Shown here one piece after another: positions 1 to 37,966 of a stretch of 41,422 nt of DNA (position 1 is the first letter of the stretch; every line of letters starts with the position of its first letter). Location of the stretch: assembly GCA_029056055.1 (NCBI GenBank), contig JAIDCC010000037.1, positions 1-41,422 on the forward strand. The letters run 5' to 3'. This DNA comes from Duncaniella sp. (GTDB lineage Bacteria; Bacteroidota; Bacteroidia; Bacteroidales; Muribaculaceae). The notes beneath the pieces were generated by a model. It was not told the origin of the DNA. It made no database searches and was given only the letters and a program-made list of their open reading frames with translations. A program made the translations under genes and the position numbers.

Positions 1-480
1 GCGCGGCGAGAGGGGGTAATTCGTAGTCGTGGGTCTGCGTGGACGCGCCATGGCGCGTCCCTACCTGCTAATCAGGCGATTACAGTGCAATACATTCCCT
101 CAGGGGATGTGGTCAATCCTCTATTTGAACCGCATTGCGCCATGGCGCGTCCCTACCTGCAAATCAAACGGTTGCCGGGCCACGCATCCCCGTAGGGGAT
201 GAATTACACAGCCCACGAATTCATTCGAGGCGGACACCACTCTCCTCGTGGAACATCCCTGAAGGGGATGAATATCCCAACTGCGTAGGGGGATTTCCCG
301 GTGTATCTCAAATCGAATCAGACTTTCCGGGTTGTCGCTCTCGGGGAAGGCGTCTTTCCGCTGTCGCTTAGCGAGTTGAGGGTGCGTGCGGAAAAAGTTA
401 TTAACACAAAATCGCAGTTATGAACACTTGAAATCGACAATTGTCAATTGTATGTTAATAACTTTCAGAAAATGTAAATA
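1..480. repeat. Composite palindromic repeat block upstream of tRNA-Arg
   Basis: No credible gene is seen here. The stretch holds a perfect 20-base palindrome, GGACGCGCCATGGCGCGTCC, at 41-60, and a partial copy at 137-152. It also has three short inverted repeats of the form CATCCC-N-GGGGATG (93-109, 185-201, 254-270) and an imperfect CCACGAATTCATTCG palindrome near 212-227. The same elements recur in the same order at 25.7-26.3 kb and 36.6-37.0 kb, so this is a dispersed composite repeat. It resembles REP/BIME-type intergenic DNA; no transposase is nearby. Short open frames across it are repeat artefacts. Confidence 0.7.
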
Positions 481-5559: not shown

Positions 5560-5595
5560 AAAAACCGCCGGTCAAGATTTGACAGGCGGTTTTTC
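5560..5595 (-). terminator. Terminator of the TerD/tubulin/Hsp70-like operon
   Basis: A long hairpin pairs AAAACCGCC with GGCGGTTTT and, after one mismatch, GTCAA with TTGAC. It has T runs on both strands, so it can work in either direction. It lies 17 bases past the last gene of the seven-gene operon (stop at 5613) and isolates it from the DUF362 operon. Confidence 0.8.
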
Positions 5596-5612: not shown

Positions 5613-6206
5613 TTAAAAGAGTCCTTGACGCTTCATCGCATTGACGCGCCTCTGGATTGCCTCGTAGTTGGCACCTAAATTATTGCGGCGCACAGCTCCA
5701 TTGCCGTATTCACCGCGAATCACCTTGAGGGCTTCTTCTTCCACATCACCAGTTGCGGCAGACGTTGCGGCTACGTTGCTTGCAGTCTGTTTGACGGGTT
5801 CAGGCTTGGCAGAAGTCGACTCAGACATTTCTGACTGGTTTTCTATGTCGCCCTCCGGCTCCTCTTGCGCTACAATCGAATCGGCACTTGCGGTGATATC
5901 GATTACGCCTTCATCGATTGAAGTCTCTTCTGCACCCGAAATTACTTCGGTATGGACTTCTTCAGCGATAGCGTCCTCTTTGTCGCTCCCTTTCGGCACT
6001 ATCCACCACACCAGAGCTGCAATCAGCACTACGCCTACGATAAGCAAAAGCCAATTGCTACCTTTGCCGTCAGGTTCGGGTTCCGGAGTTGGTTCCGGAG
6101 CAGGGGGCGTCACCTGTTCATCTTTCGTCAGGTCGAAATGGCGTTTGCCACCCTTCGAAAGATTGAAATCTCGGTTTGACGACTTGTTAAGATCGAATTG
6201 TTTCAT
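5613..6206 (-). CDS. Single-pass membrane anchor: TerD-like N-terminal strands, TM helix, CW_7 domain
   Basis: A 197-residue protein with three visible parts. (1) Residues 1-30 repeat the motif F-[DN]-L-x-K three times with an exact 10-residue period (F4, F14, F24). FNLSKGG-FDLTK closely resembles the first two strands of TerD proteins (in classical TerD: SLSKGG-SLTK), and the TerD next door has SFNLKKG-RFNLGKG. (2) A Pro/Glu-rich stretch and a transmembrane helix at 51-70. (3) A long acidic Ser/Thr/Glu linker, then residues 156-197, EALKVIRGEYGNG..RRNNLG..YEAIQRRVN, which fits the CW_7 (Cpl-7) peptidoglycan-binding repeat. No cleavable signal is seen, so N-in/C-out is expected, with the CW_7 domain in the periplasm. 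It is the last gene of the operon, 12 bases after TerD. Inference: it tethers a TerD-containing complex to the cell wall. Confidence 0.72.
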   Translation of the reverse strand: MKQFDLNKSSNRDFNLSKGGKRHFDLTKDEQVTPPAPEPTPEPEPDGKGSNWLLLIVGVVLIAALVWWIVPKGSDKEDAIAEEVHTEVISGAEETSIDEGVIDITASADSIVAQEEPEGDIENQSEMSESTSAKPEPVKQTASNVAATSAATGDVEEEALKVIRGEYGNGAVRRNNLGANYEAIQRRVNAMKRQGLF

Positions 6207-6218
6207 GTTCGACTGAGA

Positions 6219-6827
6219 TTAGGCATACATGTCGACGAGAGTCTGAAGGCCTCCGTCAAACCCTTTGCCAATAGCTTCGAAAGTCCAGTCGCCCTCGCTA
6301 TTGAGGACGAGAGCTCCCGCAACCACGGCTGTCTCGGTCGAGAAATTCTCGTCAAGAGCATACGAGCAAAGTTCTTCGCCGCTTTCTTCGTCAGTGATGA
6401 CGATGCGAGGATCGTTGACGTCCTTGAACGTCACACCGGGTGTATGGATAGTTACGCAGAAGACGATTTCTGTTACTTCAGAACGAATCTTATCAATCAC
6501 CACGTGCATCGTTTCGCCGTCGTCGCCGGTAAGGTCATCAGGCGCGCCGGTTACGGCACCGTCAAAGCTGACGGGAATAGTTTCGTTTCGCCAATTCGCT
6601 TTGCTACCGAACTTTTGGCGATCGTAGGCTTCGGAACGATTGTCGGAATTATAGAAAACGAAGTCTGCGTCTTCTGAGATTGTGCCTTCATCGTTAAGAA
6701 GGAAAGCAGATGCGTCAAGATCTGCTTCTGACTCCCAGGTCAGATCTACCTGAAGCTTGGAGAGGCCGTCCCCCTTGCCAAGGTTGAAACGCTCTCCCTT
6801 TTTGAGGTTAAAACTTTTTTTTGCCAT
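6219..6827 (-). CDS. TerD family calcium-binding stress protein
   Basis: A 202-residue TerD-domain protein (PF02342), the usual family length of about 190-200. The N-terminus shows the twin strand motif SFNLKKG (5-11) and RFNLGKG (13-19), then LQVDLTWE. Acidic calcium-binding segments follow: the DLDASAFLL motif (37-45), DFVFYN (55-60) and a GDDGETMHV stretch. It ends with the typical GGLQTLVDMYA. TerD folds are beta-sandwiches that bind calcium; the name comes from tellurite-resistance plasmids, but chromosomal members act in wider stress or envelope systems. No terC or other ter genes are present, so tellurite resistance should not be assumed. It is cytoplasmic and sits 8 bases downstream of an Hsp70/actin-like gene. 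Confidence 0.9.
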   Translation of the reverse strand: MAKKSFNLKKGERFNLGKGDGLSKLQVDLTWESEADLDASAFLLNDEGTISEDADFVFYNSDNRSEAYDRQKFGSKANWRNETIPVSFDGAVTGAPDDLTGDDGETMHVVIDKIRSEVTEIVFCVTIHTPGVTFKDVNDPRIVITDEESGEELCSYALDENFSTETAVVAGALVLNSEGDWTFEAIGKGFDGGLQTLVDMYA

Positions 6828-6835
6828 AAGAGAAT

Positions 6836-8779
6836 TTAATGTATTGAAGTTTTGATAGTTTTATACTTTTTAAGTAGCTCCTGATAGTCGGTGACGTCCA
6901 GATTGACCTCTTTGCATAGCTTTATGAACGCGGAGATATCATCTATTCTTCTTGTGATATCGGTGGCCGACTTTCCCTGTCTGCTCGCTTCGAAAGTCAC
7001 TTGATATGCTTTGATAAAGCCCTCGGTAGTAACAATCCTTTGAAGTACCTCTGCTTTATGGTTGTCGCCTTTGAGGCGATACCACTTGAGTGCCTCTTTC
7101 AGCTTTCTCTCCTTTATCAAACGTTCACCCTCTGCCTCATTAGAAGAGGGCGACTGTGTTCTGCCGCTACCTGTCGTGACTGTCTTTGACTGTTGTTCCG
7201 CGGCTTGGTATTTAGCAAGAAATTTGTCGATATCAGCCACTATTTCGGTCAAGCCAAGCTTTCCCATCTCTCCGCGTGCGTTCAGAGCGCGAGAACGAGC
7301 ATTGGCATATCTGCCGTTGTTAAATTCGGCTCGAAGTTCTGCTTTGAGTTGGCGCCAATCGCGACGATACTTTTCTAATTCCTTAGCATCTACAGGAGGT
7401 GCTGGTGGCTCGGGTGTTGGAGTCGGCTTCGGAGTCGGTTCAGTAACCCCCGGTAAATCGTGCTTCTTAATGAAATTGTTAATCAACGTCACTACTTCCG
7501 ACACCAGGGCATCCTCACAGATGGTGCGCAACTCTACGGCGCGGTCAAAGGCCTCTTGCCGACGTCCGTTGGTAATAGCAGCCCGCAGTTCAGGTTTCAG
7601 CAGTCGCCACATGCGCTGGAGCTTTTCTACTTCTTCCGGAGAAGGACTCGGTGGCGCCGGAGGTGTTTCTATCTTCGGCGGCTCTGGCTCAACTGTCGGA
7701 GGAGTAGGTTGACTAACCACATCCGGGGTTGAGATAATCAGTTTCATCACTCCTTCGCGCAATGTAGGAGAAGTAGGTAAAACCATGCCGAATCCGGGTG
7801 AGAGAGCACGTTCGAAATATCGCGAATGAGCCAGATTCCCTCGCAGTATCAGCAGAGCCTTACTCCGGTCGCTGATACCATGAGTCAGGAGAAAATCACT
7901 TACTTTCCGGCGTAGCTGCGGGAGTTCGGCCGGAGCGGCTGATTCGATTTCAGCGCGATTGAGGTCGTAATGATATGTCTGACCGTCGCGCAACGTCACC
8001 GAGCCCGACTTGATAGGCTCCGTACTTCTCAGAAATTCAGCCGTGATGCTTTTGATTTGAGCTTCGGCATCATCGTGTGTCAGCCATGTGTTCTGACCGC
8101 TGAAACGACGCCAGAGCACCTCGCCTACCGTTTTTTCCGTCGGGTCTGTTCCCAGCCCGACCAGACACGACGAGACACTCTCGTCAGGGCTGTTCTGCGA
8201 AACCAGCGAGAGATAGAGGTCATTGCCGTTGCTCCAACCCACGACGGTGTGACTATACGTAAAACGTTCGGCCAAATCCTTGACAACGAAATGTCTTACG
8301 AACGGCCCGTATTCTATCACTTTCGCCTTCTCATATCCGGCCTCTGTAAGAAGTCTTTTGAGGAGTGCGCGTTCGTTTGGTTGCACATCGGCCTCGCAGA
8401 CTACTATCAGGGGCATCTCCGCACGATAGTCGGAGATAGGGTTGTACTCGAAGAGCGTCTGCTTCAGAAAACGTTCCAACACCTGCTCGATGGCATCGAT
8501 GAGGATATATCGAAAATCTTTTTCCGTCCCACCCATAGGATAGGAAAAGCCTTTGGGCAGATTCTCAAAATAGCCGCGAAATGCCCCGGGAGTATGACTT
8601 TGGGCAGCGTGCTGAGCATCGGCACCAAGGGCGATTCTATCAGTTCTGGCATAGAAGGCCAGTGGCGCAGGCCAATTGCCTCCAGGCATAGCCGCAAGGC
8701 AGTTGGCACCATCGGGTTGCACATATTCAAATGCAATCCGACGGTGTGAGATGGTGATTATTGCGTGATAGATTGACAA
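6836..8779 (-). CDS. Divergent Hsp70/actin-fold protein with duplicated helical C-terminal modules
   Basis: A 647-residue cytoplasmic protein. Residues 1-350 look like a degraded actin/Hsp70 nucleotide-binding fold: an N-terminal strand pair IYHAIITISHRRIAFEYV, a phosphate-2-like VVGWSNGNDLYLSLV near 186, and an adenosine-loop-like ILRGNLAHSRYF near 310. The acidic and glycine residues needed for ATP hydrolysis are largely missing, so it may be a non-catalytic partner of the 1282-residue neighbour. Two Pro-rich linkers each precede a related helical module of about 65 residues (about 380-445 and 465-530), both containing W-R-x-L-K-x-E-L-R-A and N-G-R-x-x-x-A. A third helical region, with GERLIKERKLKEALKWY, ends the protein. 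The gene is 3 bases after the 1282-residue gene, implying translational coupling. The fold call is by eye and should be tested by profile or structure comparison. Confidence 0.55.
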   Translation of the reverse strand: MSIYHAIITISHRRIAFEYVQPDGANCLAAMPGGNWPAPLAFYARTDRIALGADAQHAAQSHTPGAFRGYFENLPKGFSYPMGGTEKDFRYILIDAIEQVLERFLKQTLFEYNPISDYRAEMPLIVVCEADVQPNERALLKRLLTEAGYEKAKVIEYGPFVRHFVVKDLAERFTYSHTVVGWSNGNDLYLSLVSQNSPDESVSSCLVGLGTDPTEKTVGEVLWRRFSGQNTWLTHDDAEAQIKSITAEFLRSTEPIKSGSVTLRDGQTYHYDLNRAEIESAAPAELPQLRRKVSDFLLTHGISDRSKALLILRGNLAHSRYFERALSPGFGMVLPTSPTLREGVMKLIISTPDVVSQPTPPTVEPEPPKIETPPAPPSPSPEEVEKLQRMWRLLKPELRAAITNGRRQEAFDRAVELRTICEDALVSEVVTLINNFIKKHDLPGVTEPTPKPTPTPEPPAPPVDAKELEKYRRDWRQLKAELRAEFNNGRYANARSRALNARGEMGKLGLTEIVADIDKFLAKYQAAEQQSKTVTTGSGRTQSPSSNEAEGERLIKERKLKEALKWYRLKGDNHKAEVLQRIVTTEGFIKAYQVTFEASRQGKSATDITRRIDDISAFIKLCKEVNLDVTDYQELLKKYKTIKTSIH

Positions 8780-8782
8780 AAC

Positions 8783-11700
8783 TTATTGTTCTAACAGTTT
8801 GAGAAGAGTCTTCTCGAAGAATGCCATGCCTTCGAGGATGATTATCGGCGCAGCGAAATTAAATGGTTGTCCGCTCTGGTGTGCTTCCCTCCTCGCCTCT
8901 CTAAACTCTTGAGTGTTTTGGGTAAAACCGGTAATGTTGATTTCTCGGCATGCGTTTTCGAGAAGTTTCGGATTGACATTCCAACCACACAGATGATGAG
9001 CGGCACTATAGAAGAACTCGCAGAAAGTAGTGAATTTCTCTGCTTTCACCTCTCCCGTCATATTGAAGCGGATGCCGATGTTCTCCATCATTGCCGGAGT
9101 AAGTGTGTTAAGGTAATTCACCTCTCTGACCTGATGATCGTTTCCGACAAGCGAGAAGCCGTTTTCGCCGATAATCTCCGATTTCTGTGGCTCGCTCGGA
9201 CGGTGAAGCTCGGTTTCACCTTTGGCGAGACCTTTCGAAACTTCATATTTGATGTCCGTCTCATGGAGGTGTGGCAATTCTATGCGACATGCCCCGGTAT
9301 TAACAAGCTTGCCGAAGTCGCTTCCGAAGCCTCGTAAGAACATGCCCTCATAGTAGGTCTTGGCATTGGTCTGGCTGATGGTCTGCAACCATTGATAGAG
9401 GCGTGAGCCTTTGCCTGCAAACGAAATAAACACGCCCGGTTTTCCGGTCTTGGCCCATTCCTCAGAGTTTGTGCGGTTGAGGTCGTCAATCAGTTTGTGA
9501 GCCAACTGTCCGGCGTAGAACATCAGCAGTCCGGTCACGTAGAGGTTGACACACATCATCTGCGGACATGTAGCCATGATGGTGCGATAGAATTCACTCA
9601 GCTGGTCATCATCGAGTTTGTTGACCACCTGATCGAAGTAGTACGATGCCGTCTGTGGATTATAGGTGTCAGGACCAAAATTAAGCCCCACCATGCGTAT
9701 GTTATTGTTGGCGCATACATCTCTGAGCACTTTCTTGAACGAAGGAAAATGACCGACAGCCTGCGACACCCTCTGGGCTGCAAAACGCAGTGAGTTTTGC
9801 TTAATCATGGTGATTTTGTTTTTCAGCATGAACAGAGAGGAGATGTCGGTGGTCGTACCTCCTAAGTCAAAGCATAAGTAGAGAAGGTTAGCCGATGTCT
9901 GCTTGCTGGAGATAAAATTGGCCACAGCCTCTGCTTCCGATAAGCTCGGATTGTCTTGCGGAGTGGTCAGCTCGTAGATTTTGACCGGATTGTAGCTGAC
10001 CTTTCGCTCCGGATCGTCAGGAAGAAGGTCTCCGGCAACGTGGGTCTGCGGCTTCTGCTCAGCACCACCACCGTCTCCGAAGATTGTTTCTTCGCCGCCG
10101 AAACCTCCGCCGCCGAAGCCTCCGCCACCAAAACCGTCGGCGCTGTCGAAACCACCTCCAAAAGTAGCGCTACCTCCGAAGCCTCCGCCGCCTCCGAAGC
10201 CAGACTCGGGCTGCACATCATTCCCTGTAGTTCGGTCAAAGCCATCTCCTAAAGCTATGGAAGCCGGATTGTAGCGGCTTACGTTCAGCGGATAAGGTTG
10301 GCCCGAAGGATCCAAAACCGGTCTTACTTGCGACAAACCACTCCAAATGCCATCGTATGAAAAGAGTATCTGCCCCGACATGGCCGATGGATACGACCAT
10401 TTGATTGATACAGGCACCATCCCTTCAAGGAAGAGATGGGCATCAATCTGGAGCAGCAGAGTGCGAAGGAATGCTGATTTGTAGGCTTTGTCTTCGTCTG
10501 TGTCAACCCATTTCATGTTGTGTACCTGCGTGACATTTCCTACGCCGTTAGGAAAGTTGAGCGTAATCGATTTGTCGTCAGAACCAACGAAAGGCAGATT
10601 GTCGGCGAAGCAGGGAAATCCGCCTACCACTTCACGCGAGTTACGTTGAGAGAGCGATTCGGTGGGAGCAGGTGCCGACAGACGACGCTTGTCGTGGAGT
10701 GTGAGTACGCTTTTGATGGCGTTACTCTTCACTTCTACACCCGGGCCCGGGAAAAAGAACACCTGGTTTTCGTGGGGGGTGGGGCGATTGTCGTTGCCGA
10801 GCAGCGAGATTCGCTGGCTCTTAAACGTAAATCCCTTTTCGCTGAGACCATCAGAGTAGGCTACGGATGTGTTGGTGCTTCCGAAGTCGATGCCGAGGTT
10901 TACTTTGTTGAGCCCGGCATTAACGTTCGGATCCATCATGTCGCGGGGAAGCGTCGTGTTGAGGGCGGAGCTGTAATTGATGAGTAGAAAACCTCCCTCA
11001 TGTCCTGACGGCGACAGAAGGCGCACTCCCTTGAAAGGCCTCGTCGAGCGGAAAATTTCATACTTGTATGAATTGTCGTTGACGTTGGTATTATTTTCCA
11101 CCAGAATGGTCGCGCCATTCACAACCGAGTTGCCCGAGAGCAACACAGGATTGTTGTTGGCATCGACGATGATTCTGAACGAGCCGTTGCGCATTTCGCC
11201 CAAAAACGGGAACGCACGATAGGTCGACGAAGTGCCATTGTGAGGCAACTCACTGTAAAGAAAGTAAGCGTTCCACTGAGGTGATACGAAGTTTGGCCAG
11301 ATAAGAATGTCGTTATTGGCTATTTCGGCATCGCATGTGTAGACGCGTTTCAGCTCGCGCCGACCTCCGCTTGCCGTGTGAAGTGTCAATACCACCTCAA
11401 GATTATTGGCTGTCAGCGATGGGTCAAACTCCGCACGCAGAGTCGACGGGATGGCTGTCGAGGCATCAGAGGTATTGGTGAGAGCTCCCACATTTCTGCC
11501 GAATACGTTCAGACCGAGCGCACTGAGCGGAAGCGCAAAGGGCACTTTGGTTTGGACGCCCTTGACGTTGGCCATCAGAACAAGCACGGGGAGATTCTGA
11601 ATGTCATCCCGACTGACGTTGAGGCCAAGGCGTGCTATGTGGGCCGAATCGTCAAGCAGAAGGTCTTGGGGGTCGAACTTTATTGCTCCCGTACTTGGCG

Positions 11701-12631
11701 ATTCCGAGATAGCGCCCTCAAGTCCGTAAAGAATATCTTTATGGCATAGCAGAATCTTAAACGGACCGGCCAACTGCAGATTTACCGGAGGAGTAGACCC
11801 TATGGAAAGGTTAAAACCGTTATTCTCTGCGTATTTGGCTATTTTGTCACGCCAGCTGGTCAGAATAGTCTGAATTGTGTTGTAGTTGACTCCTGCATTG
11901 CCTGTCAGACCGGAGTAATATTGTGCCACTCCGCTGAGATTTTTGATAAGATGCTCGACGTAGGCATGTAGAGTGGCAGTCTGCTGCTCGGTCAATTCCG
12001 AGTTTAGCGGGTCGGTGAACTTTCCTGTGCCCGGTTTGACCCACGGCAATTGATTTGTCTCGTCAATTTTGTAGCCTGAAGAGGTGAACACGAGACATTC
12101 GGGCGCTGTCGCTCCCACAACCTTGCCGCGATACTTGATGACGTTGATGAAAGGTACTGCCACGGTGTTGGCGGGCAGATTCTGTTCACACCAGCGTTGG
12201 CGACGTTCAAGAAGCATATTGCCGAACGCACCTTTAGGCTCATACACGTTGGCGGTATTGGCCGGGGTCTTGCCGTCACTGTATTTGAGGTCGATGCGAC
12301 GCGCTGTCACATGGGCATAGTCAAGAGCAAGGCATGCAATAAGTCCTTTCCATTCGTCGACGAGCCGCCTGTAATAGGAGAGAAGTGAATTTGTGTCGGC
12401 GCTGCCGGTGCTGACCGCGAGGTGATCTATTGCATTCTTGAAAAGATCCACGCGCGCGAAAGCCGACGGTATACCCGAGACGAGTTGGGCGATATTGGTG
12501 TGCTCCGTTAGCTGAGGGGTGATGATGTTGTTGATGAAAACAGCGGTATTGGTCATCATGGACCAATTGTCTACAGACCCCGAAATCGCTGCGTTGGCAC
12601 TTACATCTATGGTGAGAGATTTATTTGGCAT
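8783..12631 (-). CDS. Large Hsp70/actin-like ATPase with N-terminal extension and FG-rich insert
   Basis: A 1282-residue protein, much longer than DnaK (about 640). The first ~570 residues match no family I recognise: helical at the start (about 20-290), then beta-rich. An intact actin/Hsp70-type ATPase follows: phosphate-1 LGIDFGSTNTSVAY (about 576-589), phosphate-2 CFDLGGTTTDIS (about 919-930), and an adenosine motif ISFAGKGSRLYQWL (about 1067-1081). Inside the ATPase, between phosphate-1 and phosphate-2 (about 810-860), is a glycine/phenylalanine-rich low-complexity insert with many FGGG and GFGG units. There is no signal peptide, so it is cytoplasmic. It is 9 bases after the tubulin-like gene and 3 before the second Hsp70-fold gene. 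A substrate-binding domain like that of DnaK is not evident, so chaperone activity is not implied; a switch or filament-forming role is possible. Confidence 0.75.
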   Translation of the reverse strand: MPNKSLTIDVSANAAISGSVDNWSMMTNTAVFINNIITPQLTEHTNIAQLVSGIPSAFARVDLFKNAIDHLAVSTGSADTNSLLSYYRRLVDEWKGLIACLALDYAHVTARRIDLKYSDGKTPANTANVYEPKGAFGNMLLERRQRWCEQNLPANTVAVPFINVIKYRGKVVGATAPECLVFTSSGYKIDETNQLPWVKPGTGKFTDPLNSELTEQQTATLHAYVEHLIKNLSGVAQYYSGLTGNAGVNYNTIQTILTSWRDKIAKYAENNGFNLSIGSTPPVNLQLAGPFKILLCHKDILYGLEGAISESPSTGAIKFDPQDLLLDDSAHIARLGLNVSRDDIQNLPVLVLMANVKGVQTKVPFALPLSALGLNVFGRNVGALTNTSDASTAIPSTLRAEFDPSLTANNLEVVLTLHTASGGRRELKRVYTCDAEIANNDILIWPNFVSPQWNAYFLYSELPHNGTSSTYRAFPFLGEMRNGSFRIIVDANNNPVLLSGNSVVNGATILVENNTNVNDNSYKYEIFRSTRPFKGVRLLSPSGHEGGFLLINYSSALNTTLPRDMMDPNVNAGLNKVNLGIDFGSTNTSVAYSDGLSEKGFTFKSQRISLLGNDNRPTPHENQVFFFPGPGVEVKSNAIKSVLTLHDKRRLSAPAPTESLSQRNSREVVGGFPCFADNLPFVGSDDKSITLNFPNGVGNVTQVHNMKWVDTDEDKAYKSAFLRTLLLQIDAHLFLEGMVPVSIKWSYPSAMSGQILFSYDGIWSGLSQVRPVLDPSGQPYPLNVSRYNPASIALGDGFDRTTGNDVQPESGFGGGGGFGGSATFGGGFDSADGFGGGGFGGGGFGGEETIFGDGGGAEQKPQTHVAGDLLPDDPERKVSYNPVKIYELTTPQDNPSLSEAEAVANFISSKQTSANLLYLCFDLGGTTTDISSLFMLKNKITMIKQNSLRFAAQRVSQAVGHFPSFKKVLRDVCANNNIRMVGLNFGPDTYNPQTASYYFDQVVNKLDDDQLSEFYRTIMATCPQMMCVNLYVTGLLMFYAGQLAHKLIDDLNRTNSEEWAKTGKPGVFISFAGKGSRLYQWLQTISQTNAKTYYEGMFLRGFGSDFGKLVNTGACRIELPHLHETDIKYEVSKGLAKGETELHRPSEPQKSEIIGENGFSLVGNDHQVREVNYLNTLTPAMMENIGIRFNMTGEVKAEKFTTFCEFFYSAAHHLCGWNVNPKLLENACREINITGFTQNTQEFREARREAHQSGQPFNFAAPIIILEGMAFFEKTLLKLLEQ

Positions 12632-12640
12632 AATGCTGGA

Positions 12641-14299
12641 TTATTCGGTGAAGTTTTGAGCGTCTGTGATGGCGTTGTAGAGATGAGCCAGAAAACGTTC
12701 CTTGAGAGTGACTCCCTGACTGTCGGCGGGTAGAGTATCGGGGTTTTTGACGATGGTGATGAACGTGTTGAAGCGTCTGTCGGCATCCGACGAAAAGATG
12801 GAACCCTTTTTCTGCCAGTGATAACGCGGGTCGGCTAAAACCATTCCCGGATCAATATTCTTAAGAGACTGGATATCGGTCTTGAAGGCCTCGCTCGTGA
12901 AAATAAATTTTCCGGGCTCAACAGATTTGTTTATCTGATAGATCCATCCGAATTCTACATTTCCGTTCAGAAATTTGTAGGCGAACTCCTTGAGATAGTT
13001 GTCAATTTCGTCGGCCTGCGCATCCTCCAGATCGTTATATTCTTGGAAGGCCGCATCATCAAGATAGTCGAGAAGCCGCTTTGTTCCGCGTTGTCCTTCC
13101 TCGGCTCCGTGGAATTTTGAGAGTATCACATGAGCAAGCGAAAGAAGAGCGCCGAGTTTGTTTTCAAACTTGACACCGTCTTTTTCGCCTACGAAACTTT
13201 TTCCCGATAGAATCAGGTTGCCGTGGTCGTCGGTCTCTACGGTGCGGAACACATATTGGGCGTTTGTGATGTTCTCAAGCACGTCTCGCGGGGTAGTGAA
13301 AAAGTCGTAGGCCGCACAGGCCGACATGAGTTCGGCTATGTGGCAAGCATTGCGCTGAAGCGCTCCGCCCGTTATCACATCGCCCTCGCGGCCGCTCGAA
13401 TAGTTGACTTTCGTAGGCCAACCGATATGATACATCCGCTTGTAGGTGTTGCGCACCGACGGGTCTTCTTCGTAGAAGCTTAAGGCTGCTTGCGAATTGA
13501 GAGCGAAATTCTTGGCATCAGCTACCACTCTGTCGTGGCCTATCTGCTCCTGTGTAGGAGTTCCGAATGTGAAATAGTCGGTCAGGAGAGTGGAGCCGAA
13601 GAGCACGGAGTTGAGGTTGAGTTGATGAGTCCCTCCCTTGATGATGGTCAGCGCCTCACTGATGGCAAGTGGAATGACGGGGATTGATGAGGCTCCGGTG
13701 CCTCCGAATACGCTTCCGAATACAAACACACGGGCATGTGCTGCATTCTGACTTAAGAGTTCAAGGAATTCGTAAAGTTCCTTTTCCTGCTGCTTTACAT
13801 TTTGGCCTCGTTTGACAGATGCAGCGGCTTCTATTATGCCATGATACATCAGCATAGACCCAAGGTGGGTCTGCGCGCGATATCCATGGTCGAGCTTGAA
13901 ATCCTGCACAGTCTCCGCATCATAGAAAAGGTCGGTCAAATCTTGATTGTCGGCGCTGTCTTTCTGGTTGAGATTGTTCGTGCGGCAGAGGGCGCTCAAT
14001 GTCATGCGTCCCGGTTTCGAATAGTCGGTGAAAAAACGGTAAAGATTGAGCTTCGCCGAGAAAAACGTATTGTTGCGCGGAGCACCTCCCTGGTTGGAGG
14101 CATCGTTGGTCTTAACCTTATTGTAGAGTTCGATGAGGTCTTCTACTCTGGTTTTGTTGCCATTGTTTTGGTCGGTATCGAGCGTGAGGATTTGTATCGT
14201 CCGGTTATCGAACATACCGGCTGCACAGAGGTGAACGAACGATTCGAGGCATCGCATTCCGGTGCCACCTATCGCTATCAGGAAAAGTTTGTCGTCCAT
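12641..14299 (-). CDS. Tubulin-like GTPase family protein (Tubulin_2-like)
   Basis: A 552-residue cytoplasmic protein. The N-terminus LFLIAIGGTGMRCLESFVH with the following ILTLDTDQNN is a Rossmann-type nucleotide-binding start like that of tubulin/FtsZ. Residues about 190-206, VFVFGSVFGGTGASSIPVI, carry the GGTG[AS]S glycine loop that corresponds to the tubulin/FtsZ T4 signature. The rest, with NVEFGWIYQIN near residue 450, is not FtsZ-like. The best fit I know is the Tubulin_2 group (PF13809), bacterial tubulin-superfamily proteins found beside vWA, Hsp70-like and stress-system genes. It is distinct from the cell-division FtsZ. It is 33 bases after a small membrane protein gene and 9 before the Hsp70-like gene. 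GTP binding is likely; polymerisation is not known. Confidence 0.75.
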   Translation of the reverse strand: MDDKLFLIAIGGTGMRCLESFVHLCAAGMFDNRTIQILTLDTDQNNGNKTRVEDLIELYNKVKTNDASNQGGAPRNNTFFSAKLNLYRFFTDYSKPGRMTLSALCRTNNLNQKDSADNQDLTDLFYDAETVQDFKLDHGYRAQTHLGSMLMYHGIIEAAASVKRGQNVKQQEKELYEFLELLSQNAAHARVFVFGSVFGGTGASSIPVIPLAISEALTIIKGGTHQLNLNSVLFGSTLLTDYFTFGTPTQEQIGHDRVVADAKNFALNSQAALSFYEEDPSVRNTYKRMYHIGWPTKVNYSSGREGDVITGGALQRNACHIAELMSACAAYDFFTTPRDVLENITNAQYVFRTVETDDHGNLILSGKSFVGEKDGVKFENKLGALLSLAHVILSKFHGAEEGQRGTKRLLDYLDDAAFQEYNDLEDAQADEIDNYLKEFAYKFLNGNVEFGWIYQINKSVEPGKFIFTSEAFKTDIQSLKNIDPGMVLADPRYHWQKKGSIFSSDADRRFNTFITIVKNPDTLPADSQGVTLKERFLAHLYNAITDAQNFTE

Positions 14300-14332
14300 T
14301 GCGAATGATTGAGTTGGATTGGTGTTCCGGGG

Positions 14333-14677
14333 TTAGTTAAACCAAGTCCCGACTTTCGAGTTGGGCGATGATTTGGAGATTATGAATCCCAAAACAATGT
14401 AGAGTATGCAGCTGCAAGCACAGCTTATACCGGAATGAAAGATGTAGGTGTCTTTAATGTTGGGCACAGAGATATTACCTGCATACAATGCGTTGATGAG
14501 AAACGCTACCACAGGAGTGACGGCAGCGAGAAGCCAAAACCAAAGGCGGCGTTTGGTTGTGCCGGTGTCGTCGGGACGGAAGGGGATTGCGCCTGCGATG
14601 ATATAGGCGGCGAGGAATGCGACAATCATTACCACTAAGGCGATGATGTAGGCGGTAGACATTGAAACTTGTGTCAT
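14333..14677 (-). CDS. Small three-helix membrane protein of the TerD/tubulin-like operon
   Basis: A 114-residue integral membrane protein with hydrophobic segments at about 8-30, 45-66 and 80-101. A charged loop (RPDDTGTTKRR, about 34-44) is likely on the cytoplasmic side by the positive-inside rule. The third segment contains two Cys (CACSC). I recognise no family. It sits 16 bases after the vWA-like gene and 33 before the tubulin-like gene, so it is almost surely co-transcribed and may be the membrane partner of one of them. Confidence 0.7.
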   Translation of the reverse strand: MTQVSMSTAYIIALVVMIVAFLAAYIIAGAIPFRPDDTGTTKRRLWFWLLAAVTPVVAFLINALYAGNISVPNIKDTYIFHSGISCACSCILYIVLGFIISKSSPNSKVGTWFN

Positions 14678-14693
14678 GACGAGAGTATGTTTT

Positions 14694-16151
14694 TTAGATT
14701 ACCTTTATATAATAAGTATAGATTACGCGACCTTTTGGGCTTGAGCTGTCAACCTGAAGCGCCAGTTTGACAGATGCCGCCAGAGAGGGATTGTCGGTCC
14801 ACGTGAAGAACTCTTCAATCCGACTTCTGTTAACATTGGCCTCGGCTATCACCACTTGAGCCCGAATGAGGGCATTGGGATTGGCCGGCACCGCGAAATT
14901 TTTATCGAAATCGATAACGATTTCATCCCACCCTTTCAGATTCGGTCTTTTGGCCGCTTCGAGCGATACGTCTAAGAGCATCTTGACTTCAGGGGTTGAG
15001 ACACCGTCGGCAGCGCCGTTGAGAGCCCAATTCTGCATCACGCTATCCATGTCGGTGGTGTGGAGGGCAACATTTTCGATATCGTAGCCGTCCTGTGCCG
15101 AGAAGTCTACAAACAAGCCGCTGAGGAAATGGCTGTAGCGCAGGCTATCGGGAACGTTCGAATCAGAAAAAGTTATCGCATTTTGCGAAGCATTCTGCCA
15201 ATCTACGCCGAGAGGGTAGTATTCCGTCCTAAGAGACTCAAACCGGGCGTAGGCCTCGGAAGAGCCGTCTTCAAGAACATTGCTTACATTGTCGATATTT
15301 TTATCACCGTGGTAATTTCCGCCTTTCACGGGAGTGAGGTAGACTTTGCGTCCCGGTGTATCGTCGGGAGTCACTGGATAGTCAAATTCACGGCCGGCAA
15401 CCACAAACTTCGATATAGAAGGATCTACATCGCTGAGTGCTTGCTCCACCTGCTTGTTGAGCTGCGCCGTTGCATCGTCAAAAACCGTGACAAAAAGATA
15501 CTTTTGCTTGCCATATTCTTCAAACCCCCATTTGTAAAAGTAAATGTCGAAACCTTTGGCGAGCCATTCAGTGAACATCTTTTTGGCATAAGCACCCTTT
15601 TCTATCCTCTCACCTTTATATTCTTCGTAATCGGTGATGAGAACTGCCGGTTTACCGGATGTGTTTATCGCATCAAGAGTTTTCTCGATAGGTGCCATTT
15701 GATTTGAATAATTTTTTTTATCGAGAAGGTAGTTGTAGACCTCTGTGAATGGCATTTCGAGTGGTGTGATTTTGAGCTGAGCCAAACGGTAGAAGGTATT
15801 CTTGTCACTCGCCAACTTATTGATAAGACTCTTCAGTATCTGCTGGCATGTGGGGGTAGCGGTAGCGGGAGAGAAAGCGCAGTTCATCCCATCGGACATA
15901 TCGAAGTAGACATCCGCACCCTCTGAAGAAAGAAGAGCGGGCTGCTCGGCGGTTTGTTCAAGGTAGGTTTCGAGATGCGAGCGCTGAAACGTGTAGTTGT
16001 CACTGCGTGTCAAAAAATACACCACTGCTCCCACCAAAGCAAGAGCCGCGACGGCTACCACGGCAATCAGGATGCCGGAAGAGTTCTTTTTGCCGTTACC
16101 ACCCCTTCCACGAGTGCGAGAAGACTGGTTTGACTGATTTCGACGAGCCAT
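14694..16151 (-). CDS. Single-pass membrane protein with vWA-like periplasmic domain
   Basis: A 485-residue protein, first in the seven-gene operon. A basic, Arg/Gly/Asn-rich N-terminal tail (1-24) is followed by one transmembrane helix (about 26-48), so the bulk should be periplasmic. Residues 81-89, VYFDMSDGM, end a hydrophobic strand with D-x-S-x-G-M, close to the metal-ion-dependent adhesion site (DxSxS) of von Willebrand A domains. A later strand, AVLITDYEEYKGERIEKG (about 169-186), resembles the acidic strand-end of that fold. The C-terminal third is beta-rich and not recognised. The vWA assignment is by motif only; a degenerate MIDAS or another Rossmann-like fold is possible. Context suggests it is the extracytoplasmic sensor or adhesion part of the system. 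Confidence 0.6.
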   Translation of the reverse strand: MARRNQSNQSSRTRGRGGNGKKNSSGILIAVVAVAALALVGAVVYFLTRSDNYTFQRSHLETYLEQTAEQPALLSSEGADVYFDMSDGMNCAFSPATATPTCQQILKSLINKLASDKNTFYRLAQLKITPLEMPFTEVYNYLLDKKNYSNQMAPIEKTLDAINTSGKPAVLITDYEEYKGERIEKGAYAKKMFTEWLAKGFDIYFYKWGFEEYGKQKYLFVTVFDDATAQLNKQVEQALSDVDPSISKFVVAGREFDYPVTPDDTPGRKVYLTPVKGGNYHGDKNIDNVSNVLEDGSSEAYARFESLRTEYYPLGVDWQNASQNAITFSDSNVPDSLRYSHFLSGLFVDFSAQDGYDIENVALHTTDMDSVMQNWALNGAADGVSTPEVKMLLDVSLEAAKRPNLKGWDEIVIDFDKNFAVPANPNALIRAQVVIAEANVNRSRIEEFFTWTDNPSLAASVKLALQVDSSSPKGRVIYTYYIKVI

Positions 16152-16422
16152 ATTAATCGGTTAAGAAAGTGATATAACTATTTTTAGATTTCAACTATGA
16201 TATATATGCAATGCTTGTGATTGTTATTTCAATAATATTTCTTTGCGGGATTAGATTTTTAGACTGCTAAATTACAAAAATTAATTTTAGATAACAAGAT
16301 TTTTATCAAATTTCTTTAAAAATAAATTGTGGTTGCTTGTAGGGTGGTGCACAATTTATGATAAAAAGTACTAGTGTTTGCATTTTTGCGACCAAAATGT
16401 TTGTGGTTACGGAAAAAATGTG
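16152..16422. other. AT-rich divergent intergenic region
   Basis: No gene is seen. The DNA is strongly AT-rich and separates the minus-strand seven-gene operon from gdhA. A near-consensus -7 for the operon is TAATTTTTG on the minus strand (16283 to 16275), one base longer than TAnnTTTG, with TTTG at 16310-16307. The spacing of 23 bases is long, so the operon promoter is not settled. Confidence 0.35.
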
Positions 16423-16430
16423 TAACTTTG
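16400..16430 (+). promoter_or_regulatory. Promoter of gdhA
   Basis: TTTG at 16400-16403 and TAACTTTG at 16423-16430 are spaced by 19 bases, an excellent match to the Bacteroidetes housekeeping promoter. Transcription would start near 16437, giving a leader of about 200 bases before the ATG at 16641. Confidence 0.75.
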
Positions 16431-16436
16431 TCGCGG

Positions 16437-16610
16437 TTTTGGGCTTGGCGGTTGCATTTTGCCGCACTTCGGTGCGGCGATTGAGACCGAGGGACGCAGG
16501 GGGACGAGGCTCGAAGCTGTAGCGCAAGAGGCCAAACGCAAGCCGAAGCGCAAGAGGCCAAGCCGAACCCCAATCCCGGCCCAAGCAGGGCGGGGATGAC
16601 ATATGTAAAT
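16437..16610 (+). repeat. gdhA leader with UUCG hairpin and short direct repeats
   Basis: GCCGCAC (16461-16467) pairs perfectly with GTGCGGC (16472-16478) around a TTCG tetraloop, a very stable hairpin. It lacks a T tract, so it is not a standard terminator. GCGCAAGAGGCCAA occurs at 16522-16535 and again at 16548-16561. The text looks like dispersed intergenic repeat DNA inserted in the leader rather than a known riboswitch. Confidence 0.45.
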
Positions 16611-25360: not shown

Positions 25361-26278
25361 CAAATGCAAAATTACAACGAATTGCGGCTGAAAGCGGTGC
25401 GATAATCCCGGGACAACCAAATTCAGGCCTAAGCAGGTAGGGACGTGCCATTCAATAAGTCGGAATATGAAATCGGGCGAAAAAATACGCGACCATGTAC
25501 GGACCTGCCTTCGGCACGTTACTCATGCACAGCACGTTAGGTGATATTTTTACGTTGAGATTTATTGTTGCCCTGCCCGGGCTACGTGCCAAAGGTACGT
25601 CCGTACACTGAGGCGTAAACGGTTGATACACAGATGGTATTTAACCGATATCTTAGGTGCGCGTGGTAGAATTTCCCCCTCGCCGCGCCCCCGTCGCCGC
25701 GGACGCGCCATGGCACAATGCGGTTCAAATGGAGGATTGACCACATCCCCTTCGGTGATGCAATGCACTGTAATTGCCTGATTAGCAGGTAGGGACGCGC
25801 CATGGCACAATGCGGTTCAAATAGAGGATTGACCACATCTCCGATGGGGATATATTGCGCTGTAATCGTCTGATTAGCAGGTAGGGACGCGCCATGGCGC
25901 GTCCACGCAGGCCCACGACGACGAATTTTCTCCCCGGCGCGATGCCAATTCCCCATTTAACATTTTCGCATAAAAATTTCCGCCGATTTTTGCGTTCTTG
26001 TGTGCCGCGGTGCCTCTTCGCCGCGGACGCGCCATGGCGCGTCCCTACCTGCTAATCAGACGATTACAGCGCAATGCATCCCCGGAGGGGATGAAAATAC
26101 AAAGCCCCACGAATTCATTCGTGGGGTCAACTATTTCATTATCATAAACATCCCTGAAGGGGATGAATATCTCATGCGCGTAGCGGGTGATTTCCCGACT
26201 TTTCTCAAAAAATAGCTGTCAGCTTGTCCGGCTGAAGCAATATTCATCCCCTTCAGGGATGTGTGCTGTAGTTTCGTC
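25361..26278. repeat. Repeat-rich intergenic region
   Basis: No gene is seen in these 918 bases. Full GGACGCGCCATGGCGCGTCC palindromes lie at 25885-25904 and 26025-26044, and half copies at 25701-25716 and 25793-25808. CATCCC-N-GGGGATG inverted repeats lie at 25744-25760, 26077-26093, 26149-26165 and 26245-26261. A CCCACGAATTCATTCGTGGGG palindrome is near 26106-26126. A second family (GTACGGAC-TGCC) forms an inverted pair at 25495-25520 and 25584-25606. The halves before and after about 25950 are in opposite orientation, so the block is itself a large imperfect inverted arrangement. Confidence 0.75.
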
Positions 26279-36469: not shown

Positions 36470-37351
36470 CCCCCTCCGCGGCGCCTTGTTATTGGGGTAC
36501 TTTATTGGGTACTTTTTGGGGCACTTTTTGGGGCACTTTTGACGTGACGACAGAATTCAATCAGTACGCGGAGAGGCGAGTGGGGCGATATTCATCCCCT
36601 TCAGGGATGTTTTTGAGAAAGAGACCGTTGTCCCCACGAATGAATTCGTGGGGCTTTGCAATTCATCCCCTCCGGGGATGCGTCGCCGTTGTTCTAATCG
36701 ATTGATTTTTGGTAGGGACGCGCCATGGCGCGTCCGCAGAGACGTTGGCGCGGCGAGAGAGGGTAATTCGTAGTCGTGGGTCTGCGTGGACGCGCCATGG
36801 CGCGTCCCTACCTGCAAATCAGGCGATTACACTGGGATAAATCCCCGGAGGGGATGTGGTCAATCCTCTATTTGAACCGTCATACGGCTATTATGAAGTT
36901 TGAGGGTCGGTTGAATTTTCCGCTGGTCTCCCCCAATCCACTATTTGAATCGCATTGCGCCATGGCGCGTCCGCGGCGAATTGGCACAGGGACATACGAA
37001 AACGCAAAAATGCGCGGAATTTTTTCGCGAAAATGTACGGACGTGCCTTCGGCACGTTTCCAGTGCACCTCGACAGGGGTAATTTACAATTCCGCAACGC
37101 ACGCCTCACCTGTGTGGACGCGAAGTTGCCGCGGTGAGGCGTCCGGCCTATTAAACGTGCCAAAGACACGTCCGTACATGGTCGCGTATGTAACATTCTG
37201 CAATTGTCTGATTTGCAGAATGGTCGACGTTGTCAAAAGCTACATTCGCCCAGTTTCAGGTTCTCGTCGCTTCCCGGGGATTGCTATGTATTACGCCCCT
37301 ACCGAGGCGTGGTTGCTACTCGGTAGGGGCGCTGTCAATCGGGGAGGGGGG
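36470..37351. repeat. Second repeat-rich intergenic region
   Basis: No gene is seen. A 12-13 bp tandem repeat (TTTTTGGGGCAC-like, four units) lies at 36491-36540. Full 20-base palindromes lie at 36716-36735 and 36788-36807, with a half copy at 36957-36972. CATCCC-N-GGGGATG inverted repeats lie at 36593-36609 and 36664-36680, and a CCCCACGAATGAATTCGTGGGG palindrome near 36634-36655. The GTACGGACGTGCC family forms an inverted pair at 37035-37057 and 37155-37177. A perfect 13-bp inverted repeat (37294-37306 with 37319-37331) sits just beyond the HD gene and could end its transcription. Confidence 0.75.
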
Positions 37352-37966
37352 TCAGTCTTTTTCGATGATTTGGGCGGAGATGGTATCGGCGGAGTGGATG
37401 AGGGGGATGAGGGCTGAGCGTTTGACGGCTTCGCGGTAGGAGCGTTCTTCTTCGTAGTTGTTGGTGTCGACGCCCCATGCGCCCATGTGCCAACGGATGG
37501 CGAGGAGTTCGTCGTCTTCGAGGTCGAGGCCCATACGGAGGAGCATGACGACGCTCTTTTCGCCGTGTCCGAAGGGGAGATTTGAGTAGTTGAGTTCGTA
37601 TTCTTCGACTTCTTCCCAGATGCCGACTTCGTTTTTGCGTTTGCGGGTGACGCGGCGGTAGATGTCGGCTTTGCAGGTGTCGTGGAGGAGAGCGGCGAGG
37701 ATTACGGAGTCTTCCGGGAGCTGCGGGGCGAGGTCGGGACGCATCTTGAGGATGCCTTCGCGGAGCATCATGGCGGAGTCGTAGACCGAGAGGGAGTGGG
37801 CCACGAGTCCGCCGGGGTAGTTGAAGTGGTTTTTGGCGGATGCGGGGGCGTCGAAGAAGCCGAGAGTGCCGAGGTCTTCGATGACGTATTCGATGTTTTC
37901 GCGTCCTGTCTTGCGGAGGAGCTGACAGAAGCGTTCTTTGTTTTCGTCGTATTTGGTGGTTGACAT
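37352..37966 (-). CDS. HD-domain hydrolase
   Basis: A 204-residue soluble protein. The metal-binding HD signature is visible: His in GGLVAHSLSVYDSAM, the His-Asp pair in ILAALLHDTCKADIY, a further His in IRWHMGAWG, and the Asp in IPLIHSADTISAQI. The family hydrolyses phosphate esters of nucleotides or nucleic acids; short Bacteroidales members of this type are annotated only as HD-domain or hydrolase. No second domain is present, so RelA/SpoT- or dGTPase-like activity is not supported. It is a single gene between a repeat block and an AT-rich tandem repeat. Confidence 0.85.
   Translation of the reverse strand: MSTTKYDENKERFCQLLRKTGRENIEYVIEDLGTLGFFDAPASAKNHFNYPGGLVAHSLSVYDSAMMLREGILKMRPDLAPQLPEDSVILAALLHDTCKADIYRRVTRKRKNEVGIWEEVEEYELNYSNLPFGHGEKSVVMLLRMGLDLEDDELLAIRWHMGAWGVDTNNYEEERSYREAVKRSALIPLIHSADTISAQIIEKD

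Follow-up and report, generated by a model that had tools for sequence, protein, structure and literature searches.

The ter stress operons (TerZABCDEF), which carry the TerD domain, are one of the described systems that resemble the locus reported here. FtsZl1 operons are another. These combine a divergent tubulin-like protein with a vWA protein and, in several genomes, with OmpA-type wall binding, and Makarova and Koonin (2010) proposed membrane remodelling for them (PMC2875224); no Hsp70-like, TerD or CW_7 partner is mentioned in the accessible part of that paper. Kaur et al. (2020) predicted GTPase-centric conflict systems built on DO-GTPase and GAP1-N2, with tubulin, Hsp70 and vWA genes and with membrane and wall-type domains (PMC7159879). 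TerD is mentioned there once, listed with the effectors of vWA-MoxR systems as a domain that may bind nucleotides and not with this core, and no link to CW_7 or Zor was found in the accessible part. Finally, Zorya has a PG-binding membrane protein, and the words ‘tubulin’, ‘vWA’ and ‘Hsp70’ each occur 0 times in the accessible part of its description (PMC11890865).

Here we analyse a window of 41,422 nucleotides from Duncaniella sp. (GenBank assembly GCA_029056055.1, contig JAIDCC010000037.1), which holds a unit of seven genes, P1–P7 (Table 1). Like the Kaur systems, it has tubulin-like, Hsp70-like and vWA-like genes together with membrane and wall-type domains, and four Bacteroidota relatives (L012, L016-L018) pair its core genes with DO-GTPase and a GAP1-like protein, but Pfam found neither DO-GTPase nor GAP1 among the window's seven proteins. 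The unit shares with Zorya a membrane protein that binds peptidoglycan, and 14 related loci carry ZorA-like and ZorB-like genes beside the core; unlike Zorya, none of the window's seven proteins has a PADLOC Zor match. The P-loop GTPase of FtsZl1 operons, as given in the accessible part of PMC2875224, was not recognised in the window by Pfam. In contrast to the ter operons, no further ter gene was recognised in the window operon by Pfam, and the neighbours of the window TerD are an Hsp70/tubulin core and a wall anchor that bears tags. A literature search, largely outside subscription journals and bioRxiv, found no paper on this combination.

Results

The seven minus-strand open reading frames run from 16151 to 5613 with intergenic gaps of 16, 33, 9, 3, 8 and 12 bases, bearing out the original prediction, made from the sequence alone, of seven same-strand genes with gaps of 3-33 bases. 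Relatives show this gene order again, so chance clearly does not account for the seven-gene operon. The AT-rich region that had been placed upstream is also there (GC 0.41, against 0.50 in the operon and 0.59 in the rest of the window); a search of this stretch for the promoter consensus TTG-N16-24-TAnnTTTG gave no match. The strong terminator expected at the operon end is upheld in part: the hairpin is stable (-24.4 kcal/mol, z -6.0, 0 of 200 shuffles equally low), but a simple terminator scan does not list it and its U-run falls inside the stem. Scans of the seven proteins returned nothing relevant from NCBIfam, and in PADLOC nothing stronger than E 0.043.

Table 1. Features of the operon and its borders, listed in the direction of transcription
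Feature	Coordinates	Strand	Basis
AT-rich upstream stretch, probable promoter region	16152..16595	-	GC 0.408
P1, vWA-like protein, one N-terminal TM	14694..16151	-	MIDAS-like motif and family profile match
P2, 114-aa three-TM protein	14333..14677	-	hydropathy count
P3, tubulin/FtsZ-like GTPase (Tubulin_2-like)	12641..14299	-	invariant motifs and family profile matches
P4, 1282 aa: unassigned ~560-aa N-terminal region and Hsp70/actin-type ATPase domain	8783..12631	-	conserved residues, profiles, AlphaFold2/Foldseek
P5, pseudo-Hsp70: degenerate Hsp70-NBD fold and helical C-terminal region	6836..8779	-	AlphaFold2/Foldseek
P6, TerD	6219..6827	-	Pfam TerD, E 4.8e-41
P7, single-pass anchor: N-terminal tags, TM, low-complexity stretch, C-terminal CW_7	5613..6206	-	Pfam and alignment
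TerD-mimicking tag repeats FDLNK, FNLSK, FDLTK in the P7 N-terminus	6120..6206 (approximate)	-	alignment, similarity to TerD N-termini
Hairpin at operon end, probable terminator	5560..5595	-	folding energy against shuffles

By its motifs, the P3 family carries the tubulin-type nucleotide-binding signature. IGGTG and FGGTGA are invariant in 31 aligned sequences, of which 23 are matched by Tubulin_2 at E <= 0.01 and 24 by Tubulin, and the prediction of a tubulin-like P3 was right at the level of sequence. P3 itself scores below the Pfam Tubulin_2 cut-off (E 6.2e-4; 19.6 against 27).

Structure models support an Hsp70-type nucleotide-binding fold in both P4 and P5, as had been proposed when the two were called Hsp70/actin-fold proteins. 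The ATPase domain of P4 is interrupted by a Gly-rich, low-confidence insert, and D582, G584, N587, D922, G924, D929, G1073 and G1075 are invariant in 27 sequences of its family. The family profile matches MreB and Hsp70 chains (best E 3e-4), and the AlphaFold2 model (residues 83-1282, pLDDT 78.8) has a Foldseek match to DnaK (E 9e-6). P5 begins with a TTG start 3 bases past P4, and just two residues are invariant among 18 aligned sequences; its model (pLDDT 85.1) matches Hsp70 nucleotide-binding domains (E 1.7e-12, target TM up to 0.70). For P4 and P5, the Pfam scan of the window proteins gave neither an Hsp70 match nor a recognisable substrate-binding domain of the Hsp70 type, and the top Pfam match of P4, MutL, fell below cut-off (E 4.7e-3).

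The bulk of P1 is probably periplasmic, and among the N-termini listed for its relatives many read as lipoprotein signal sequences. Its MIDAS-like motif is DMSDGM, S86 and D174 are invariant in an alignment of 29 sequences, and the family profile weakly matches the BatB vWA structure 3ibs (E 0.0035). The original description of a vWA-like, single-pass P1 agrees with the TM, the motif and this weak match, but the Pfam scan of the window protein found no vWA domain.

TerD and CW_7, predicted for the last two genes, both exceed their Pfam cut-offs. P6 also matches the solved TerD structures 2kxt/2kxv (E 1.2e-21). As to calcium binding, a putative property of this TerD in the original prediction, the observation is that acidic residues are conserved. 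The CW_7 match of P7 (E 1.4e-11, 44.4 bits against a cut-off of 25) comes from a scan of the window protein alone, and the anchors of relatives were judged by an alignment of 10. In these alignments the cytosolic N-terminus of the anchor repeats the N-terminal tag of the adjoining TerD. Compared without trimming at the motif, anchor and TerD N-termini gave a mean z of 3.95 over 22 pairs, many of them from related loci, against 0.03-0.50 for five other proteins encoded in the operons. With whole P7 as query, no other credible tagged protein was found in the genome (best other match E 0.53).

In relatives, the recurrent unit by gene content is a four-gene core of vWA-like protein, three-TM protein, tubulin-like GTPase and giant Hsp70-like ATPase, patchily distributed in Bacteroidota. 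Of the 56 loci whose tubulin gene is complete, 41 have all four genes and 54 have the Hsp70-like gene next after the tubulin gene. This set omits L029 (interrupted tubulin gene), L007 (which nearly duplicates L008), L019 and L020 (which share contigs with L006 and L008) and the short loci L001-L004 and L039-L095, and counts the near-identical L118 and L120 separately. Profiles A2, A3, A6, A9 and A10 include members picked by gene position, so detection there is by construction. The 25 loci L096-L120 took no part in building the core profiles, although the tubulin or Hsp70-like profile was what found them; 23 of these have the Hsp70-like gene after the tubulin gene, 13 have a three-TM gene and 16 a vWA gene. 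Eight of the 56 (L096–L098, L100–L103, L117) have a tubulin gene with neither a recognised vWA nor a recognised three-TM neighbour.

Beyond the core, the genes vary. A TerD module (P5, one to three copies of TerD and a membrane anchor) occurs in 10 of the 56 loci, namely the window and 9 relatives, and its anchor has a CW_7-like wall domain, or OmpA in one locus. The four loci with a DO-GTPase and GAP1-like module all have Pfam DO-GTPase above cut-off; GAP1-N2 is above cut-off in L017 and L018 and below it in L012, while L016 has GAP1-M alone, below cut-off. A ZorA-like and ZorB-like pair is found in 14 of 56. PADLOC ZorB models match all three ZorB-like proteins scanned (best 1.3e-14), and the ZorB-like profile matches solved MotB-type chains (E 2.3e-11 and 5.7e-8; we take 8qyd to be a Zorya structure). 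PADLOC ZorA models match four of five ZorA-like proteins scanned (best 1.7e-11, weak for most; L109 unmatched), and these proteins carry a GLxGT motif, which we take to be MotA-like. The ZorA assignment rests on these two results because a PDB profile search gave matches that we read as coiled-coil noise. P5 accompanies the TerD and DO-GTPase modules; in the ZorAB loci, which share the core, neither P5 nor TerD was recognised. L025 and L026 have P5 followed by unrelated genes, and 19 loci have no recognised module, several of them ended by contig or locus limits.

Relatives keep the gene order, as the original prediction anticipated, but what recurs is the core and not a fixed machine of seven genes, with TerD as one module among several. 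The predicted attachment to peptidoglycan gains indirect support, since each module type has a membrane protein that bears a wall-type domain (CW_7, OmpA, SH3 or MotB/ZorB). The modules appear to track the core's tree for the most part: with unclassified loci excluded, the four module labels need 4 changes on the tubulin tree against a minimum of 3, on a quick tree with long branches. The loci with DO-GTPase occupy two separate positions within the TerD loci, both on starred branches.

Relatives of the P3 tubulin occur in 4 of 27 genus genomes and, patchily, in 34 of 149 at the family level. With any tubulin relative in so few genomes of the genus, the genes are not a Bacteroidales-wide housekeeping set. 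The clearest module swap, judged by sequence comparison, is one mobile-element backbone that carries two divergent versions of the core: eight integrase/primase backbone proteins of L027 and L032 are 79.5-97.6% identical, against 21.5-27% for the adjoining cores, and the modules differ. The low GC of the operon also favours mobility. The L027 integrase has no relative within the window. At 1e-5 the tubulin matched neither phage records nor Bacteroidota plasmids; the plasmid search gave 5 weak matches, all cyanobacterial, and viral contigs yielded 5 relatives (L116-L120). Across 7 loci of the genus, glutamate dehydrogenase was the sole window gene that could be aligned, which left no empty insertion site to define.

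A link to defence islands, named at the outset as a point to check, failed to appear: 140 flank proteins gave 51 PADLOC families and 137 control proteins gave 60, a weak comparison that counts families rather than proteins, names 25 of those families and uses models that also match common helicases. The flank sample was drawn from 216 proteins after exclusion of the window, L008, L096, L101, L102 and L116-L120; the controls were 140 drawn of 184, minus three long proteins.

Discussion

We propose, with slightly less than even confidence, that this is a horizontally spread, envelope-anchored conflict system (probably anti-phage) or envelope-damage system, in which a conserved NTP-switch core works with an effector module that varies between lineages. 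In related units the place of TerD is taken by proteins akin to components of anti-virus systems, some predicted and some proven, which argues for a defence or envelope-alarm device as the probable function. In the best reading, held just as tentatively, TerD would be the effector of the window unit.

Two parts would sense a disturbed wall or membrane: the anchor, by binding the wall, and the vWA-like domain, which would lie outside the inner membrane. The three-TM protein would relay this signal into the cytosol, where the tubulin-like GTPase and the giant Hsp70-like ATPase would form an assembly, with the pseudo-Hsp70 P5 as a possible adaptor. TerD would be held, then freed or assembled at the anchor. 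Because the anchor tags copy the N-terminal strand of TerD, the anchor and TerD may use a single binding site, either in competition or jointly. Once assembled, TerD could seal, reshape or poison the inner membrane where the attack occurs.

A machine for membrane remodelling or envelope maintenance is somewhat unlikely. In such a machine, tubulin- and actin-like assemblies would, during stress, shape the inner membrane or hold it against the wall; TerD would act as a scaffold that responds to stress, and the system would have no role in conflict. FtsZl1 operons with vWA and OmpA-type proteins have already been described, in the accessible part of PMC2875224, and wall-type domains common to the module types, flanks without defence-gene enrichment and modules that largely follow the core's tree would all suit such a role. 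Conflict fits better than maintenance because the distribution is very patchy and that of an accessory system, the modules include ZorAB-like and DO-GTPase/GAP1-like genes, and one mobile-element backbone carries the system.

The two Hsp70-fold proteins adjoin a tag that is repeated on the anchor and TerD, which would suit chaperone-like assembly or quality control: the giant Hsp70 and the pseudo-Hsp70 would take the basic-hydrophobic FxLxK tags as clients and load TerD on the anchor under metal or oxidative stress. We consider this improbable, as Pfam found no substrate-binding domain in P4 or P5, the ZorAB loci share the core without a recognised TerD, and a search of the genome with whole P7 gave no other credible protein with the tag. 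A contact-dependent, secretion or surface-assembly apparatus would match the envelope-spanning layout and the vWA-like domain presumed to lie outside the inner membrane, but among the operon's genes we recognised neither a secretin or other outer-membrane channel nor one resembling a secreted toxin, and we regard such an apparatus as very improbable.

Returning to a conflict system, a more specific version is that one tubulin–Hsp70 core drives lineage-specific, peptidoglycan-anchored effectors (Zorya-type ion-driven motors, DO-GTPase/GAP1 and TerD), with TerD an anti-phage effector recruited to the anchor by the duplicated N-terminal strand; in that full form we find it rather unlikely. If true, it would be a new design of immunity, with a pair of bacterial cytoskeletal switches controlling one effector out of several. 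TerD is tied here to a tubulin/Hsp70 core that in other loci adjoins ZorAB-like motors and DO-GTPase/GAP1 genes, which makes roles in immunity for TerD, bacterial tubulin-like GTPases and Hsp70-like proteins directly testable. With one core and different modules, these effectors could be compared in a single laboratory host.

The operon and its proteins

The window is contig 61 of a 2.88-Mb genome, and its seven-gene operon (P1 to P7 in order of transcription; Table) has an AT-rich upstream region and a strong hairpin at its terminal end. Among the seven proteins Pfam was confident for TerD and CW_7 only, and the others were assigned from family alignments. Judged by its sequence, the GTPase-type protein is tubulin-like: the loops IGGTG and FGGTGA are invariant in the family alignment, and Tubulin_2 was matched by 23 of 31 family members. 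The 1282-residue Hsp70-like protein P4 retains three actin/Hsp70 superfamily motifs, phosphate-1, phosphate-2 and adenosine; an AlphaFold model of residues 83–1282 (pLDDT 78.8) matched DnaK in Foldseek (E 9e-6). The pseudo-Hsp70 P5 was modeled (pLDDT 85.1) with an Hsp70 nucleotide-binding domain fold plus a helical tail (fold match E 1.7e-12), and just two residues are invariant across 18 aligned sequences of its family. For P1 the evidence for a vWA-like protein is weaker.

Coordinates of the operon and of other features discussed in the text
Feature	Source	Position	Strand	Remarks
Seven-gene operon	window	16151–5613	minus	intergenic gaps of 3–33 bases
ORF with repeated peptide	window	135-371		HGASLPANQT...
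ORF with repeated peptide	window	25582-26215		HGASLPANQT...
Another common stretch	window	36776-37417		MARPYL..., in common with one of the two ORFs
Integrase/primase backbone	L027	12144-18699		
Integrase/primase backbone	L032	349-7048		
ZorA-like protein with LysM match	L109	13703-15445		residues 142-172, E 3.4e-7
Aspartyl-protease-like and WG-repeat proteins	L113	10503-14327		after the core; protease-like match E 3.4e-17

Recurrence of the core

The closest records recovered are titled Muribaculaceae, Porphyromonadaceae, Barnesiella, Bacteroides and Bacteroidales, along with one Saccharibacteria bin that is a near copy of another locus. A protein search gave 14 relatives in which gene order is conserved within reach of each locus; the seven of these relatives that carry TerD genes have two apiece, and L021 and L023 have a single one. 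Tubulin relatives, close and remote pooled, occur in 34 of 149 family genomes, and tubulin relatives occur in 23 of 393 order genomes. The Hsp70-like protein had matches in 101 of 395 phylum genomes, mostly short open frames resembling MreB/FtsA-type proteins, and the match table holds 12 with E < 1e-15, one of them incomplete. Within the genus any relative was found in 4 of 27 genomes, the window's own being top by far (771 bits vs 483 for the next).

Fifty-seven loci were examined, and a full tubulin gene is present in 56. An Hsp70-like gene follows it in 54 of these, the three-TM gene was recognized in 43 and the vWA gene in 46, and all four core genes are found in 41. Seven loci (L096–L098, L100–L103) have tubulin without recognized vWA or three-TM neighbors, five of them with the Hsp70-like gene, and are perhaps a divergent branch. 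L029, with an interrupted tubulin frame, and L035, where the Hsp70-like and vWA matches are short fragments, seem to be decayed copies.

Modules after the core

Ten loci, the window included, carry P5, one to three TerD genes and an anchor. CW_7 was scanned for in the window anchor only, which aligns with nine other anchors. L111, from a different class of the same phylum, has three TerD genes and an anchor with OmpA (E 3.1e-19). L027, L112 and L116 have a variant module with a 192-residue TerD-like protein, which hhalign aligned to TerD with E 8.6e-5 and a probability of 60%; in L112 the anchor carries OmpA (E 6e-17). Three more TerD genes lie outside the operon in the window's own genome, on contigs 17, 36 and 76.

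The cytosolic N-terminus of the anchor contains repeats of the TerD N-terminal peptide. The window anchor has FDLNK, FNLSK and FDLTK, and its TerD FNLKK and FNLGK. FNLSK recurs in the L111 anchor, next to TerD copies with FNLKK/FDLAK, FNLSK and INLSK. Both anchor and TerD-like protein approximate V-x-L-K-x-K-[IV]-[TQ]-L in L027 and L116. Against a baseline of shuffled anchor N-termini, anchors and neighboring TerD N-termini gave a mean z of 3.95 (10 of 22 pairs above 3, related loci being non-independent). Mean z for the other N-termini was 0.29 (P5), 0.21 (Hsp70), 0.03 (tubulin), 0.13 (three-TM) and 0.50 (vWA), with 3 of 60 non-TerD pairs above 3. We infer either a common binding site for anchor and TerD or insertion of the tag in the manner of TerD's first strand.

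P5 without TerD is found in seven loci, four of which (L012, L016, L017, L018) pair it with a DO-GTPase and a GAP1-like protein. The next gene in L012 and L016, whose fetched stretches are one gene longer, encodes an SH3_3 membrane protein (E 1.9e-6 and 4.9e-5, the latter below its cut-off). Fourteen loci carry a ZorA-like three-TM protein and a ZorB-like MotB/OmpA protein, and two further loci have a ZorA-like match alone. The ZorA-like profile was built with 11 of the 14 (L028, L032, L033, L037, L038, L104, L106–L110), leaving L114, L118 and L120 outside it. PADLOC ZorA models matched in L032, L038, L106 and L110 and did not match the L109 ZorA-like protein, which carries a LysM match; ZorB models matched in L032, L038 and L106. 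An Asp in the TM helix is invariant across the ZorB-like family, which also matches solved MotB-type chains. L113 has an anchor-profile match only, among other genes; its protease-like and WG-repeat genes are possibly another module. No recognized module follows the core in 19 of the 56 full-tubulin loci.

Mobility

An integrase/primase backbone is common to L027 and L032, with eight proteins 79.5–97.6% identical, whereas the adjacent cores have just 21.5–27% identity and the modules differ. This pair is a natural cargo swap. Related integrases matched in 6 of 57 system loci, adjoining the vWA gene in four, vs 0 of 13 control loci. L116 adjoins one on an IMG/VR contig classed as viral, which may be a misclassified island. 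GC of the window operon is about 0.505, vs 0.575 (sd 0.042) for its genome in 53 five-kb segments; four segments have a lower GC than the operon. On a quick tubulin tree with long branches, modules mostly track the core, with four changes among four module labels (minimum three); the one beyond the minimum comes from the DO-GTPase module, whose loci fall at two points among the TerD loci. Elsewhere in the window, the similar peptides of two ORFs suggest a dispersed non-coding repeat, and a third place has a different stretch in common with one of the two.

Possible function

The literature searches made found no paper describing TerD combined with the tubulin–Hsp70 core, and a text search for 'tubulin' in the available portions of PMC12204202 and PMC12505986 gave none. 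Envelope remodelling instead of defence is a serious rival: in PMC2875224, Makarova and Koonin (2010) describe vWA and OmpA-type proteins as partners of FtsZl1. Two results count against a defence role: known defence genes show no enrichment beside the system loci, and the seven operon proteins had no PADLOC match better than E 0.043. Zorya requires ion flow and peptidoglycan binding by ZorB, according to PMC11890865. A role in defence is suggested by the system's accessory, mobile distribution and by the kinship of its alternative modules with Zorya and with the conflict systems predicted by Kaur et al. (2020; PMC7159879).
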